Source of the DNA: Pseudomonadota bacterium | GTDB lineage: Bacteria > Pseudomonadota > Gammaproteobacteria > CALCKW01 | Direction of reading: 5' to 3' | NCBI GenBank assembly: GCA_039196715.1 | Contig: JBCCUP010000051.1 | Span: forward strand, 1-32,184 | Length of the DNA stretch: 32,184 nt | Shown: positions 11,067 through 32,184 of the stretch, piece after piece | Position numbering within the stretch: the stretch's first letter is position 1 | How the letters are laid out: each line of letters opens with the position of its first letter | Program-made: the position numbers and the translations under genes | Notes under the pieces: model-generated | The model's database searches: none | What the model saw: only the letters and a program-made list of their open reading frames with translations | What the model was told of the DNA's origin: nothing

Positions 11067-14000
11067 CTACGGGATCAGCGTGGCCCTGACCGTGCTCACC
11101 GGCGACTGCGTGGTACCGTCAGTCAGTGTCACGGCGTAGGACGGTACGACGCTCCCGCCACCGTGGACGAACCGGATCACGCCGCCGTCCACTTCCGCTT
11201 GGGTGAAGCCGGCGATCGCGGTGGTCGGGTTGTCGCGGTGCGCGAAGTAACCGCCCCTCACCTGGGACACGCTGTAGCGCAGCTCGGACGGTGCCGAATC
11301 CGTGTCGGTGGCGTTGAGGTTGGTTCGCATCAGCGTCAGCGTTTGGCCTGGTTTGATGTTGAGGTAGTTGCCTGTGATTTCCGGCCAGGGGTTGCCTTCG
11401 GCTGGTTCCGGGTTGGCGCCACCGTTTGTTGTGTCGCGCAGCGGCGGTAGTGTCGTTGCTGCCGCCGGTGCGCTGCCCACGAATCCACCTGTGACGCGTG
11501 CATCCGTCTGGGCATCTGCCGGCAGGATCGCACCGCCGAATGCCAAGCCGTACTGTGTTAACAGCTGCTGGTTGGTCTGGCCAACAAAGCGTTGCGGTAC
11601 CTGCTCGGAACCTGGCTCATCGCCCGGTGCGAGCAATTCCGGCAGAGGAACGTAGCTCGCAGCTTGCTGAGGAAAGTAGATTCCACGACCGTCCAGAACC
11701 AGGTGATCGGGCAGCACGAAGTAGTATGGCTGGAAGTCGACCTCGAGGACCGGGGAGAGCTCGATGTTTCGGCGCTCCGATTCCCGGCCTGCGACCGCTG
11801 TGCCGCTCAGGTCACCAAAGGTGACGTTGTTCATGGTGATGGTTCTCGGCCCTTGCACGGGTTCTGAGATCAGCATGTCGCGCACGTTCCGCAGCGTGAG
11901 GTTCTCCATCAGCCACTGGTCGTTCCGGGGGGCGACGAAGCCCATCTCGAAGCCCTCGATGGTGACCGAATCGATGTGGCCGAAGCCGTTGGTAATCTCC
12001 GTGCCAAGGTCAAGCCCGACCCCCGAGTTGGCGGTGCCCGGGTCGAGGTAGAAGGGTGCGCCGATGCCGACGATTCGGCTGTCCTTCAAGCTCATGCGCG
12101 CGGTGTAGTTCAGCAGCACGCCATCGCGGTTACCCCAGACTGTGAGGCCGGAGATGGTCGGGTTCAGTGTGTCGATGTACGCCTGGGGCGGGGGTGCGTG
12201 AAACGCGCTGCCGCCTTCGCCCATGTAGCTCTGCGAGTGGGTGTACCGCACCCGGAAACCGATCGAGGAGCCGTAGGCTTCGTTGCCGCTGATCTCGGCG
12301 ACCGGCGCCCACCACGTCGGGATCTCCTCGCGGTTGGGAATCAGGTTGCCATTTTCGACGTGCGCCACCTTCACCGTGCGACGGCCGGGGTTGGCAAGGT
12401 CGGCCTCGACGAGTCCGTCAGCCCAGTAGATGATGCCGTGTGCGGTCGAGCCCGCCGAGACGTTGTTGATCATGCTCACGCCGTGGCCGGACAACCAGTA
12501 GCCGTCGCCGTCGTTGCCGAACTCCTGGTTATCGTGGCCGAGGTCCGGGTCGATTGCACCGCCGACCGAGTCGAACTGAAAGGCATCGTTGACCGAGCGG
12601 ATTGCAATGTTGCCTTGCATCGAGCCGATCTCGTCGCCCGCTTCGGTGTAGAAGCCCGTGCCCTGCACGTCGTAGGACACGTTGTCGACGAAGTTGACGT
12701 GCGCCGAGTGCATCACGAAACCCCAACCTGGGCTGTTGAAGACCACGCTGCCGCGGACGAGCGCCGGCGTGCTGCTCGGGTCCACACCGCCGCGGTGGAA
12801 GTGTATTGGGTAGCGTCCTCGGACGTTGTAGCTGTTGCCCCGGCTTGTGGTGAAGACGACGGGTGCGCCGCTGTTGTTGCCGACGGCGTCTTCGCTGAAC
12901 TCGAAGCGGATGTCATCGAGCTCGTGGGTCTTGTCGGTGCGCCCCATGTCGGTGAAGCGCGCGTTTTCGATCGACACATCGAGCGTGTGCATCAACATCA
13001 TGTGGGCGCGGTGGTGCAGAGAGGGGTTCTCCGAGCGAAACTCGATGTTGCGGGTGGTGTTGGCCACGTAGACATTCAGGCCTGCGCTCGGGGCGGCGTG
13101 GTCCAGCGCGAGCGGTTGGTCGAAGCCGATGATGCGGCCGTTGATTGATGACACGGTCCTGACTTCGTCACTGCGCGGGTCACCCACCACTGTGCCGGTG
13201 ATGACAATCTGGTCGCCGACGGCCCAACCTGACGGCATCGCGTTGAGTTCGATCGTCTGTGCGCCTCTGGCCGCGGGCGCAGCCAGGACGGCGCGGTGGG
13301 TCTTGGCGGCCCCGTGCATCTCGGTCCGGCCCATCAGCAAGGCACCACGGCCGACTTGCGTGGTGTCGCAGGCCGCGTTGACCGCGCCGTCGTCAACGAA
13401 CACGACCTCGGCCGTCACGGTGTCCTGGATGGGCGCCGAAGCCGTGCCGACGTGCAGTTGTCCCATCATCGTGCTCACCAGGGTGTCGACCAGGAGGCGG
13501 GTGTTGACCGTGTTCGCGAAGGCGAGGGTGCCGTCGACGCGGACCGTCTCCAACCGTGCAGACGCTTGTCCGTCAAGGGTGACCGTCGTCTGCGGTGGGA
13601 TGTGGACGCGCGCGCCGTCGGTCGGCACGGTGTTGTTGGCCCAGGTGGCGGGGGACGACCAGTTGCCGGACGCAACCGCCGTGTGGGTCACGTGCTCGAG
13701 CGCGACCAGCTCCATCATGTTGTTGGCGACGAAGGTGCACTCGGCGAGGTTGGTTGGCGCCGTGGGCTCCCGGTCGACTAGCTGCGATCCATCGCCATCG
13801 CCATCGCCATCGCCGTCCGAGCCATCGCCGTCCGAGTCATCGCCGTCCGAGCCATCGCCGTCCGAGTCATCGCCGTCCGAGTCATCGCCGTCGGAGTCAT
13901 CGCCGTCGGAGTCATCGCCGTCCGAGTCATCGCCGTCGGAGTCATCGCCGTCGGAGTCATCGCCGCCAGAGTCATCGCCGTCGGAGTCGCCTGTATCGTC

Positions 14001-14483
14001 CTCGTCGTCGGCTTCCTCGTCGTCGCGGTCGTCATCACCCTCATCCGGGCCGTCTTCCTCGTCCGAGTCCCCGTCTTCCGCGTCGTCCTCACTGTCCTCG
14101 TCGTCCGGTTCGACGTCGTCGTCCTCGTCTTCGAGATCGCCGTCTTCGGTCTCTTCATCTTCGGTCTCTTCATCTTCGAGGTCTTCGTCCTCGGGGTCCT
14201 CCTCTTCAAGGTCCTCGTCATCGAGGTCTTCGTCATCAGGGACGTCCTCCTCGTCGGCATCGCGGCCCTCGGCACGCGCCTTGGCCATCGAGGCCTCGAG
14301 CGCTGCCAGGAACGTCTCGAAATTCCGGATCTCTTCACGCGACAAGCGCGTGTTGACCATGCTGCGGATTGCCGGGCTGACCTCCGGTGCGGCGGTCTCG
14401 GCGGCGAGGGGCGCCTGATGCAGTCCGAATGTGGACAGGATCAGAACGGACAGGGTGTTTCTCTGGAATCGAAGGGTCTTCAT
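11067..14483 (-). CDS. Exported G8-domain beta-helix protein with hyper-acidic Asp/Ser/Gly repeat linker
   Basis: 1138 residues, with AGGAG 7 nt before the ATG. Residues 1-28 are a signal peptide (LSVLILSTFGLHQAPLAA). Residues about 74-233 are almost only Asp, Glu, Gly and Ser: first an irregular DE-rich part, then DSDGD/DSDGDD units that resemble calcium-binding DxDxDG loops. About 270-395 is a G8 domain (SGNWSSPATWANNTVPTDGARVHIPP), the domain named after eight conserved glycines in human CEMIP, TMEM2 and fibrocystin. About 480-930 is a right-handed parallel beta-helix rich in N, G, V and I. About 1040-1138 resembles a CSPG/cadherin-like repeat (LNIKPGQTLTL..., FTQAEVDGGVIRFVHGG). No membrane anchor is seen. 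Polysaccharide binding or cleavage at the cell surface is plausible from the G8/beta-helix relatives but not shown. A strong hairpin follows the stop. Confidence 0.8.
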   Translation of the reverse strand: MKTLRFQRNTLSVLILSTFGLHQAPLAAETAAPEVSPAIRSMVNTRLSREEIRNFETFLAALEASMAKARAEGRDADEEDVPDDEDLDDEDLEEEDPEDEDLEDEETEDEETEDGDLEDEDDDVEPDDEDSEDDAEDGDSDEEDGPDEGDDDRDDEEADDEDDTGDSDGDDSGGDDSDGDDSDGDDSDGDDSDGDDSDGDDSDGDDSDGDGSDGDDSDGDGSDGDGDGDGDGSQLVDREPTAPTNLAECTFVANNMMELVALEHVTHTAVASGNWSSPATWANNTVPTDGARVHIPPQTTVTLDGQASARLETVRVDGTLAFANTVNTRLLVDTLVSTMMGQLHVGTASAPIQDTVTAEVVFVDDGAVNAACDTTQVGRGALLMGRTEMHGAAKTHRAVLAAPAARGAQTIELNAMPSGWAVGDQIVITGTVVGDPRSDEVRTVSSINGRIIGFDQPLALDHAAPSAGLNVYVANTTRNIEFRSENPSLHHRAHMMLMHTLDVSIENARFTDMGRTDKTHELDDIRFEFSEDAVGNNSGAPVVFTTSRGNSYNVRGRYPIHFHRGGVDPSSTPALVRGSVVFNSPGWGFVMHSAHVNFVDNVSYDVQGTGFYTEAGDEIGSMQGNIAIRSVNDAFQFDSVGGAIDPDLGHDNQEFGNDGDGYWLSGHGVSMINNVSAGSTAHGIIYWADGLVEADLANPGRRTVKVAHVENGNLIPNREEIPTWWAPVAEISGNEAYGSSIGFRVRYTHSQSYMGEGGSAFHAPPPQAYIDTLNPTISGLTVWGNRDGVLLNYTARMSLKDSRIVGIGAPFYLDPGTANSGVGLDLGTEITNGFGHIDSVTIEGFEMGFVAPRNDQWLMENLTLRNVRDMLISEPVQGPRTITMNNVTFGDLSGTAVAGRESERRNIELSPVLEVDFQPYYFVLPDHLVLDGRGIYFPQQAASYVPLPELLAPGDEPGSEQVPQRFVGQTNQQLLTQYGLAFGGAILPADAQTDARVTGGFVGSAPAAATTLPPLRDTTNGGANPEPAEGNPWPEITGNYLNIKPGQTLTLMRTNLNATDTDSAPSELRYSVSQVRGGYFAHRDNPTTAIAGFTQAEVDGGVIRFVHGGGSVVPSYAVTLTDGTTQSPVSTVRATLIP
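13792..13987 (-). repeat. In-frame 15 bp minisatellite (DSDGD codons)
   Basis: On the plus strand, units of the form TCCGAGTCATCGCCG, with TCGGAG and GAGCC variants, repeat with exact 15 bp period from 13816 to 13980: eleven full units, flanked by shorter ATCGCC repeats at 13792-13815. The unit is five codons, so changes in copy number keep the frame. Base differences between units are nearly all silent, which points to selection on the peptide plus slippage. Confidence 0.9.
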
Positions 14484-29796: not shown

Positions 29797-31185
29797 ATGG
29801 TTGTAGGCAATGCACCCGAAGCGGTCGACCTCGTCGTCATCGGCGCGGGGCCGGGCGGTTACACGGCGGCGCTGCACGCCGCCTCGCGGGGCCGGGACGT
29901 CACCTTGATCGACCGCGGCGGTGATGCGGCGGTCGGTGGTGTGTGTCTGCACGCGGGCTGCATCCCGAGCAAGACCCTGATCGAAGCCGCGGGCGTCTTC
30001 CACCGTAGCCAGCACAGCAAGGACATGGGCGTCTCGGTCGACTCGGCCCACTTCGACCTCGCGCAATTCCACCGCTTCAAGGGCGGCGTCATCGACGGCT
30101 TGGCGGGCGGTGTGCGTGGCAAGTTGACACACGCCGGGGTCAGCACGCTGACCGGCACGGCGCGGTTCATGGACAGCAAAACGCTGGTGCTCTCGGCCGA
30201 GGACGGCGCCGCCCGTTTTCTGCAGTTCAAGGACTGCATCGTCGCAACCGGCTCGCGCCCCGTTGCCGTGCCGGGCTTTGCGTTTGGCGAACGCGTGCTG
30301 GACGCACACGGCGCCTTGCAGCTTGACACGGTGCCATCAACGCTCGCGGTTGTGGGCGGTGGCTACATCGGACTCGAGCTCGGCTGTGCTTTTGCCAAGC
30401 TCGGTACCGCTGTCAGCGTGGTCGAAGCGCTCGACCGCGTCCTGCCGACCTTGCCGGCCGGGCCCGCTGTGCCGCTGCAGCGGCGCATGGCGTCGCTGGG
30501 CGTGCGCTTTCACTTCGGCTGTCGCGCCACCGCCTACGACGGTGGGGCCCTGACGATCGCCGACGCCGCGGGCGACACGCACGCCCTCGACGCCGAATAC
30601 GTCTTGATGGCCGTTGGTCGCACGCCCAACACCGACGACCTCGAACTCGAGGCGGCCGGTCTGGGCACAAACGCCAAGGGGTTGCTCGAAGTGGACATCG
30701 ACCGGCGTCTCACACCGCACATCGCGGCGATCGGCGACATCACGCCGGGACCGGCACTCGCGCACAAGGCGAGCGCCGAGGCGATCGTTGCCGTCGACGC
30801 GCTCTGTGGTGACACCACGGCCTTTGAGCCCGAGGCCATGCCGCTGATTGTGTTCACCGACCCGGAAATCGCCCACGTCGGTCTGGACGCGGACCAGGCA
30901 AAGGCGGACGGCATCGACGCCTCGTCGCACAAGCTGCCGTTGCGCGCTTCGGGCAGGGCGGCCACTCTCGGTGAAACCGACGGCTACGTCGAGCTCACCC
31001 GTGCCCGCGACGACGGCACGCTGCTCGGCGCCACGGTCGTCGGCCCGCACGCCTCCGAGTTGATTGCCGAACTCTGCGTCGCAATCGAGCTCGGCGCGAG
31101 CGTCGAGGACCTCGCCCTCACTGTCCACCCGCACCCTACGCTCAGCGAACTCACCATGGACGTCGCCGGCCTCGCGGGCCGCTAA
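29797..31185 (+). CDS. lpdA: Dihydrolipoyl dehydrogenase (E3)
   Basis: 462 residues from the ATG at 29797, with GAGG 5 nt upstream. The FAD motif GAGPGGYTAALHA (17-29), the redox disulfide Cys50/Cys55 in GGVCLHAGCIPSK, the NAD motif GGGYIGLELG and the AIGDI FAD segment are all visible. The C-terminal HPHPTLSEL gives the catalytic His446-Glu451 pair. It reoxidises the E2 lipoyl arm and makes NADH. There is no fused lipoyl domain. It is the last gene of the operon, 20 nt after E2; a 6 bp hairpin (31191-31209) without T-run follows. Confidence 0.92.
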   Translation: MVVGNAPEAVDLVVIGAGPGGYTAALHAASRGRDVTLIDRGGDAAVGGVCLHAGCIPSKTLIEAAGVFHRSQHSKDMGVSVDSAHFDLAQFHRFKGGVIDGLAGGVRGKLTHAGVSTLTGTARFMDSKTLVLSAEDGAARFLQFKDCIVATGSRPVAVPGFAFGERVLDAHGALQLDTVPSTLAVVGGGYIGLELGCAFAKLGTAVSVVEALDRVLPTLPAGPAVPLQRRMASLGVRFHFGCRATAYDGGALTIADAAGDTHALDAEYVLMAVGRTPNTDDLELEAAGLGTNAKGLLEVDIDRRLTPHIAAIGDITPGPALAHKASAEAIVAVDALCGDTTAFEPEAMPLIVFTDPEIAHVGLDADQAKADGIDASSHKLPLRASGRAATLGETDGYVELTRARDDGTLLGATVVGPHASELIAELCVAIELGASVEDLALTVHPHPTLSELTMDVAGLAGR

Positions 31186-31418
31186 CGCGACACACCCCGC
31201 CAAGGTGTGCTGCCCACGCAGTCGCCCCACACTCACTCGCTTTGGTCACCCATGGTGAGTTTGCGGCAGACTGGGTAAGATTGAAATTCATACTCAGACA
31301 CGTCGCGTAAAAAGCGTGAAAAAACAGCGGTGTAGACCGTGATGTCGAAGACCAAGCCAGTTTGCTTATTGGATGTCCGAGTAATAAGTAATAACCAGTG
31401 CGCTGGTTATTACAGCTG
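31186..31418. other. Intergenic region where base composition changes to AT-rich
   Basis: The E3 gene ends in GC-rich DNA; from about 31265 the sequence becomes clearly AT-richer and stays so. The region has a CACACC/GGTGTG hairpin (31191-31209), a short TCACC/GGTGA hairpin (31246-31258) and the long palindrome at 31388-31413. No open frame with support, no integrase gene and no recognisable attC or attI lies here. It marks the edge between core genes and cassettes. Confidence 0.6.
31388..31413. repeat. Perfect 11 bp inverted repeat at the left edge of the cassette
   Basis: GTAATAACCAG (31388-31398) and CTGGTTATTAC (31403-31413) pair perfectly around TGCG, ending 5 bp before the cassette crossover point at 31418/31419. 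It may be an operator or terminator, or part of the recombination target. It does not have the R and L box order of an attC site. Confidence 0.6.
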
Positions 31419-31840
31419 TTAACTGTATGAGGAGGGTATCGATGTTTCCAGAAGTCAAGAACATGATTAGTCCAGACCTTGACAATGGAACGGTGCCCAA
31501 AGATCCTAAAAATTTCCAGATTTTTATTGAAGTCGAAATCGGTCCGAAAGGCCAGAAAAGTTCAGATATATTTTCCCTTACAGCTATCACTCCCTCTTCG
31601 ATTTCAGCGAATCAAGGTCCAATTTGGGGGCATGGATATTTGATTATGCCTGTGTTTTCTTGGCAGAATGTTGAAAGGTCTCTTAATCTGTTGATGATGC
31701 ACTGTTCAGGCGAGAATTGGGAGGAAGTTGTAAAAAAACTACGTAGAGAGTTGAACTGGGAATTTGACAACTACTATACATAGGGCAGTTAACAAGTTTA
31801 GTCAGTTGGACTGACGTGCCGCCAGCCACTGTTAAGGGCG
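31419..31840 (+). mobile_element. Integron-type gene cassette 1
   Basis: The element starts within GTTAACT (31418-31424) and ends at the G of GTTAGGC (31840-31846). Its own attC begins with AGTTAAC (31787-31793), the exact reverse complement of the GTTAACT at its start. This is what the circular form of one cassette requires, since both come from the same R box pair. It holds one gene in the usual orientation, ending 3 nt before its attC. Its composition is far more AT-rich than the rest of the window. The match to the RYYYAAC/GTTRRRY consensus is imperfect at one base. Confidence 0.75.
31442..31783 (+). CDS. Immunity protein 8 (Imm8)-like cassette gene
   Basis: 113 residues from the ATG at 31442; GAGGAGG 6 nt upstream selects it over an in-frame ATG at 31427 that overlaps the ribosome site. 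The pattern SPDL..., then FQIFIEVEIGPKGQKSSDIFSLTAITP, then HGYLIMPVFSWQNVERSLNLLMMHCSGENWEEVVKKLRRELNWEFDNYY, fits the Imm8 family of small immunity proteins from polymorphic toxin systems, which bind and block a partner toxin in the cytoplasm. No toxin gene is beside it. It is the only gene in cassette 1. Any promoter must lie in the 233 bp to its left. Family call is from pattern recognition; function as an orphan immunity gene is inference. Confidence 0.7.
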   Translation: MFPEVKNMISPDLDNGTVPKDPKNFQIFIEVEIGPKGQKSSDIFSLTAITPSSISANQGPIWGHGYLIMPVFSWQNVERSLNLLMMHCSGENWEEVVKKLRRELNWEFDNYYT

Positions 31841-31846
31841 TTAGGC
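31787..31846 (+). other. attC (59-base-element) recombination site
   Basis: This 60 bp imperfect inverted repeat begins with R'' AGTTAAC and ends with R' GTTAGGC. Inside, TTTAGTCAGTTGG can pair with CCACTGTTAAGG, leaving unpaired bases as in the folded attC strand, and GTCAG-TTGGA-CTGAC (31801-31815) forms a small perfect hairpin. The GGGCGTTAGGC end and length are typical of integron cassettes. The next gene starts 20 bp beyond, as expected for a following cassette. Confidence 0.78.
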
Positions 31847-31865
31847 GGCAACACTTAGCTCAAAT

Positions 31866-32184
31866 ATGTCAGAAAATTGGACAACGAATCTACCTACCGT
31901 GCTAGAGTCGCTACATCAAATAGAATTCGATTACGCAGATGGTGAAGGAATCGATTTCGAGCCTTACCAGCAGTTTCTTAATGTGGAAGATACGAAAGAT
32001 TGGTTTCGGGCTTGGACTGGAAATGATGCAGTCACCGGAGAGGAGTTTCGAATATTTGGCGAGGATGGGACAGGTGGATACGCTGCATTTTGGCTTGTTA
32101 GGGACAGTGAAGACGTCTTAGAGCAACCAATTGTTTTCCTAGGCTCAGAAGGCGCGAGAGGGGTCGTGGCATGCTCCTTTAATG
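31866..32184 (+). CDS. SUKH (SMI1/KNR4)-like protein, partial; gene of cassette 2
   Basis: The frame from ATG 31866 stays open to the window edge, giving 106 residues. The visible sequence has an acidic start (MSENWTTNLPTVLESLHQIEFDYADGEGIDFEPY) and the segment FRIFGEDGTGGYAAFWLVRD, then EQPIVFLGSEGARGVVACSFN. This resembles SMI1/KNR4-type (SUKH) proteins, which often act as immunity proteins against contact-dependent toxins. No good Shine-Dalgarno is seen; cassette genes often lack one. It starts 20 bp after the attC, at the front of cassette 2, whose first bases are TTAGGC. The end and its own attC lie outside the window. A related small fold is possible. Confidence 0.6.
   Translation, partial: MSENWTTNLPTVLESLHQIEFDYADGEGIDFEPYQQFLNVEDTKDWFRAWTGNDAVTGEEFRIFGEDGTGGYAAFWLVRDSEDVLEQPIVFLGSEGARGVVACSFN

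Follow-up and report, generated by a model that had tools for sequence, protein, structure and literature searches.

Orphan Imm8 gene in an integron cassette array lacking an integrase, from a draft bacterial genome

Background

Bacteria are shielded against contact toxins by orphan immunity genes, and how such genes are collected is debated. The window analysed here (32,184 nucleotides, the whole of contig C51; the draft genome has 169 contigs that total 4.95 Mb) ends in what a sequence-only reading took for integron cassettes, the first with an Imm8-like gene and the next with a SUKH-like gene, and it was suggested there that such cassettes are a bank of protection against rival toxins. The locus raises the question of whether immunity genes are here carried as true cassettes, how these came to lie at this place, and whether they amount to a collection. 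Immunity proteins have been listed among cassette products in one integron paper (PMC11089894), and a metagenome survey of cassettes makes no mention of them (PMC7370490).

Construction of attC models

Rfam gave no match in the window, and for this reason attC models were built from integrons of other genomes of the class. Integrases were detected in 103 of 274 class genomes and the arrays adjacent to them were used as the source of attC sites. A first model (R1), made from ten short sites, proved too narrow and served to gather 58 attCs from other class members. These 58 sites, none of them from this genome, were the training set of a wider model (R2).

Cassettes and their attC sites

The features at the right end of the window are as follows.

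31376 to 31421, plus strand: attI-like leader of 46 bp that ends at the crossover, made of a hairpin, the spacer AGCT and G^TTA
31419 to 31840, plus strand: cassette 1, complete, 422 bp, complementarity of R'' and start 7/7, low G+C
31442 to 31783, plus strand: Imm8 immunity gene (PF15586), 113 aa, frame open from 31427
31787 to 31846, plus strand: attC of cassette 1, 60 bp, with R'' AGTTAAC at 31787-31793 and R' GTTAGGC at 31840-31846, found with model R2
31841 to 32184, plus strand: cassette 2, truncated where the contig stops, with a full length of 636 bp, continuing in contig C117 (L020, from 9565 downwards, minus strand)
31866 to 32184, plus strand: 5' part of a SUKH (SMI1/KNR4)-like gene, whose full protein has 173 aa once joined to C117

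The array sits 233 bp 3' of a pyruvate-dehydrogenase operon and its left neighbour is lpd, with the stop at 31185. An ortholog of lpd was not found in three relatives of the genus (best match 39%), so that no comparison with an empty site could be made. The sequence GTTAACT at 31418-31424 is cut after the G, which places the beginning of cassette 1 at 31419, and the R'' box of the attC is the exact reverse complement of this start over 7/7 positions. The G+C content of the cassette is 42% vs 66% for bases 1-31185.

When the full window was scanned with R2 without filters, the top-ranking site was 31787-31846, at 20.0 bits and E 0.0062, and the second-best had 12.9 bits. The attC at 31787-31846 was missed by the narrower R1 and by the default filters of Infernal; it is judged real but unusual in sequence, with a modest R2 score. 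By reading of the sequence its pairing is sound, with R boxes TAAC/GTTA, an unpaired spacer and L arms TTA-CAGT that have an extra base on one side. The complete cassette bounded by GTTAACT and a 60 bp attC, the complementarity of its two ends and the covariance-model check that had been proposed for it are all confirmed by these results.

Extension of the contig to the right, which had also been proposed, was achieved through the last 137 bases of the window, which match one end of contig C117 without a difference, and it brought two further cassettes. In joined coordinates cassette 2 has the boxes GTTAGGC (31840) and GCCTAAC (32410) and cassette 3 the boxes GTTAGAC (32476) and GTCTAAC (32769), exact complements in both pairs. 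In three successive cassettes, then, R'' and the start of the same cassette are exactly complementary, 7/7 each time, and the box heptamers of cassettes 1-3 are unique within 31201-34500 of the joined sequence. The attC of cassette 2 lies at L020:9340-9268 of C117, on the minus strand; cassette 3 closes at GTTAGTT, with an attC candidate at L020:8981-8904 assigned by box logic. In array order the matches to the attC model are 20.0, 37.7 (E 2.8e-7) and only 11.4 bits. The genes of cassettes 3 and 4 matched no family and no plasmid protein, the fourth being membrane-type. Past gene 4 the right end of the array breaks down into fragments in which no attC scores, followed by an alpha/beta hydrolase gene and an aldo/keto reductase. 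PADLOC gave no match among five cassette proteins.

The link between C51 and C117 is an end overlap in a 169-contig draft, with contig ends inside arrays and an estimated contamination of 2.4%. This link, or the second copy of the leader described below, could in principle be a mis-join between strains. Such an artefact is very improbable, given that cassette 1 lies entirely within C51, that the 137-bp overlap is exact at both contig ends and that the boundaries of cassette 2 agree over the join.

An array without integrase

The genome contains one intI above the family cut-off, on contig C129. There it forms the complete integron of the genome (L007, 219-2543), in which intI is followed by two cassettes and then by pyrE and a dihydroorotase-like gene; the cassettes encode a protein without known family (157-166 aa) and an RHH/ParE toxin-antitoxin pair. 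At the locus of the window no intI is present, with lpd on the left and none in C117 on the right, and the array therefore lacks the adjacent intI and attI of a complete integron. It does have what defines a CALIN, two or more attC sites with no intI next to them (31787-31846, L020:9340-9268 and the third by box logic). As the sole intI has its own closed array on C129, the array of the window is a CALIN, in which three or more cassettes are complete. No recombinase was seen at the array head, where the rAID arrays of Bacteroidales have a dedicated tyrosine recombinase.

The hairpin leader

Immediately before cassette 1 a hairpin at 31388-31413 has a perfect 11-bp stem (GTAATAACCAG/TGCG/CTGGTTATTAC; z -3.45) that ends 4 nt upstream of the crossover. 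A second copy of the leader was found on contig C76 (L021:392-437, 89% identical, E 1.3e-9), where it directly precedes the start of a different cassette-type gene, a methyltransferase. The pattern search of the genome itself returned these two copies only, and the leader was not found in the plasmids or viral contigs searched. The two loci are unrelated and neither copy adjoins intI. No other contig overlaps C76 at its left end, and the cassette could not be extended there.

Hairpins were counted when the stem had at least 6 bp and ended 3-14 nt upstream of the crossover, with other GTTR sites of the same loci as controls. Defined in this way, a hairpin precedes the crossover in 7/12 attI sites of other class integrons vs 13% of the control sites, a feature found in this work and not a published attI criterion. 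The hairpin-bearing attI regions are those of L087, L090, L094, L097, L057, L041 and L089. The attI sites of the own genus (C129 and the relative G002) carry the hairpin as well. Because the hairpin is common in the attI sites of the class and present in those of the genus, the leader resembles an attI that has lost company with its integrase and exists in two copies; the adjacent intI that belongs to an attI is missing at 31376-31421. A role of the hairpin as the terminator of lpd was considered and rejected, since a T-run 3' of the hairpin exists only on the minus strand and the C76 copy stands upstream of a sulfatase-like gene.

This two-copy attI-like leader away from intI is a separate oddity. 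One integrase could serve several cassette platforms in trans, through solitary attI-like hairpin sites such as those of C51 and C76 far from intI, and with immunity genes among the cargo this would be an integron-based acquired defence against contact toxins. We regard this proposal as improbable.

The Imm8 gene

The first gene had been called Imm8-like and this assignment is secure, as its product matches Pfam PF15586 (Imm8) with E 4.3e-23 and 82.1 bits against a gathering cut-off of 27, over positions 13-114 of the 114 of the profile. The start is more likely to be the ATG at 31442 than position 31427, because a good ribosome-binding site, GAGGAGGG at 31429-31436, precedes it. A scan of genome contigs with Imm8 found no relative. 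In a sequence search of the PDB the Imm8 and SUKH-like proteins gave matches at chance level only, including lectin repeats.

Relatives on plasmids give the gene its context. They overlap the toxin-type gene before them by 4 bp at its end; in Paraburkholderia this is a filamentous hemagglutinin gene, and in Pantoea one for a filamentous hemagglutinin or VENN pre-toxin. Such overlaps with CdiA/VENN pre-toxin genes support a predicted immunity role, the identity of the Imm8 of the window to these toxin-linked relatives being only about 23-31%.

The absence of toxins that the sequence-only reading had noted beside both genes also stands. Toxins were not recognised among the cassette proteins and the neighbouring proteins scanned for domains (ten large ones encoded in the window, together with some from C117), so that no cognate toxin adjoins either gene within this set; the ten large window proteins were all metabolic, transport or other non-toxin proteins. 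At 11067-14483 of the window, on the minus strand, lies the gene for a 1138-aa protein that combines G8 and cadherin-like domains with a CEMIP beta-helix, which is unusual in a bacterium.

Neither the Imm8 nor the SUKH-like family was present in the 368 other class genomes sampled, this genome being the only one of the 369 with either. Because of this absence and of the low G+C, both genes were probably acquired horizontally, and the Imm8 gene likely represents acquired orphan immunity.

The SUKH-like gene

Evidence on the second gene is of a different kind. By tblastn its product shares 50% identity with a protein annotated SMI1/KNR4 on an Acinetobacter plasmid. Pfam SMI1_KNR4 (PF09346) reached 13.0 bits with the protein itself, below the gathering cut-off of 25.4, and it matched 5/8 members of the family with a best E of 0.0016. 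The model of a homolog (41% identical, pLDDT 88) had as top structures HPF1, the SMI1/KNR4-type 3d5p, 2icg and 2prv, and the Rhs immunity protein 8bd1_B, all of them weak matches (Z 4.5-5.6, and 4.6-4.9 for the SMI1/KNR4 structures; Foldseek E at least 0.3). A match to PT-TG (E 0.03) was dismissed as chance. The gene is thus remotely supported as a distant SUKH relative; the SUKH-like label given earlier holds for the annotated homologs and the weak fold matches, and fails at the Pfam cut-off.

No toxin genes were recognised beside members of this family in the Actinobacteria sampled, where the neighbours are dehydrogenases, transporters and other ordinary genes. An immunity role of the protein is accordingly putative. 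In the Acinetobacter plasmid NZ_CP113935.1 (L024) the closest plasmid relative of the gene is about 2.7 kb from an Imm41 gene, and this locus is possibly a polyimmunity locus.

Origin of the array and the question of a bank

The explanation that we favour, and consider reasonably probable, is that the window holds the start of a CALIN of at least three cassettes put in by an integron integrase at an attI-like hairpin, with Imm8 captured as orphan immunity. The integrase of C129, or one since lost, would have inserted the cassettes by attC recombination at the hairpin site, and Imm8 would have been captured as a stand-alone gene. Its product would bind and block the toxin domain at the C-terminus of a contact toxin of the CdiA/VENN type that competitors deliver, and the SUKH-superfamily-like protein of cassette 2 may do likewise but need not. 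Expression would probably come through read-through from the upstream operon, or from a promoter not recognised here: the promoter scan gave no site above chance, and none upstream of the cassette genes.

The lack of a recognised promoter, together with the decayed right end, the anonymous genes 3 and 4 and the ordinary surroundings of the SUKH-like relatives, would suit a plainer history. The array could be a remnant with random and mostly silent cassettes, in which Imm8 counts among many captured genes, the SUKH-like gene has nothing to do with immunity and no bank was ever selected. We hold this to be quite possible while placing it below an even chance, and CALINs are indeed common (PMC9024848). 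It is opposed by the intact frames of the Imm8 and SUKH-like genes and by their place in the first positions of the array. In integrons in general the first position is usually the newest and the best expressed.

The opposite reading takes both genes for immunity genes and the array for a selected repertoire, the cassette-borne equivalent of the rAID arrays. Two immunity-type folds do stand consecutively at the array head, and there is a precedent in Bacteroidales, where arrays of orphan SUKH immunity genes next to a tyrosine recombinase are protective (PMC12247911). Another class member has, in its own cassette array, a gene for an Imm-NTF2-2 protein (E 1.7e-21; alignment A5; array L083, L085 or L086), which is an independent immunity-type cassette. 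Only a single array is at hand, however, its second gene has no tie to a toxin, and among the families listed for 108 ORFs of other class arrays immunity has a base rate of about 1-2/108. These families include at least one Imm-NTF2-2 and one OmdA 'bacteriocin-protection' family, besides several toxin-antitoxin families, which suggests that immunity genes occur as cassettes but rarely in this sample. A selected repertoire accordingly seems unlikely to us.

The proposal of cassettes as a bank of protection was not borne out, as the SUKH-like family stands mostly without recognised toxins, genes 3 and 4 match nothing and only two genes in one array are concerned. It is a fair hypothesis whose support is confined to this array. 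The observation of a cassette array that has an orphan Imm8 gene and no integrase is sound and of a known kind, and the array resembles an ordinary, if well-formed, instance of a ready-made protection gene picked up as a movable cassette. With Imm8 inside a textbook attC cassette it is a clear example of how the integron system can make an immunity gene mobile, and it makes testable the question of whether immunity families are enriched among cassettes.

Comparison with known systems

The array agrees with the CALINs of IntegronFinder (PMC9024848) in having successive cassettes ended by attC, no intI at the locus and an integron elsewhere in the genome. It differs in opening at an attI-like hairpin leader that is present twice, whereas CALINs are usually described by their attC sites alone. 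The attG-site integrations of Loot et al. 2024 (cited in PMC12901181) likewise concern chromosomal cassettes away from intI; compared with a short attG, the present target, a hairpin element of 46 bp with two copies, is more attI-like.

The Imm8 of the window and that of polymorphic and CDI toxin systems belong to one family (PF15586). In those systems the relatives lie directly 3' of CdiA/VENN pre-toxin genes, whereas Imm8 is here alone in an integron cassette without a toxin.

Among collections of orphan immunity genes, the rAID arrays (PMC12247911) share with the present array a row of short co-oriented orphan immunity-type genes, SUKH included, and the association with a tyrosine recombinase. 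They gather these genes with another recombinase; here the genes are in attC cassettes, the integrase is not adjacent, protection is at most predicted and the other genes match no family. The hosts differ as well, being Bacteroidales for rAID and, for the class relatives of this genome, intI-rich proteobacteria-like genomes. The T6SS orphan immunity arrays of Vibrio cholerae (PMC5361080) also hold immunity genes without effectors and were likened by their authors to integron cassettes. They are attributed to homologous or illegitimate recombination, the authors stating that there is no evidence of an integrase, whereas the immunity-type genes of the present array lie in true attC cassettes.
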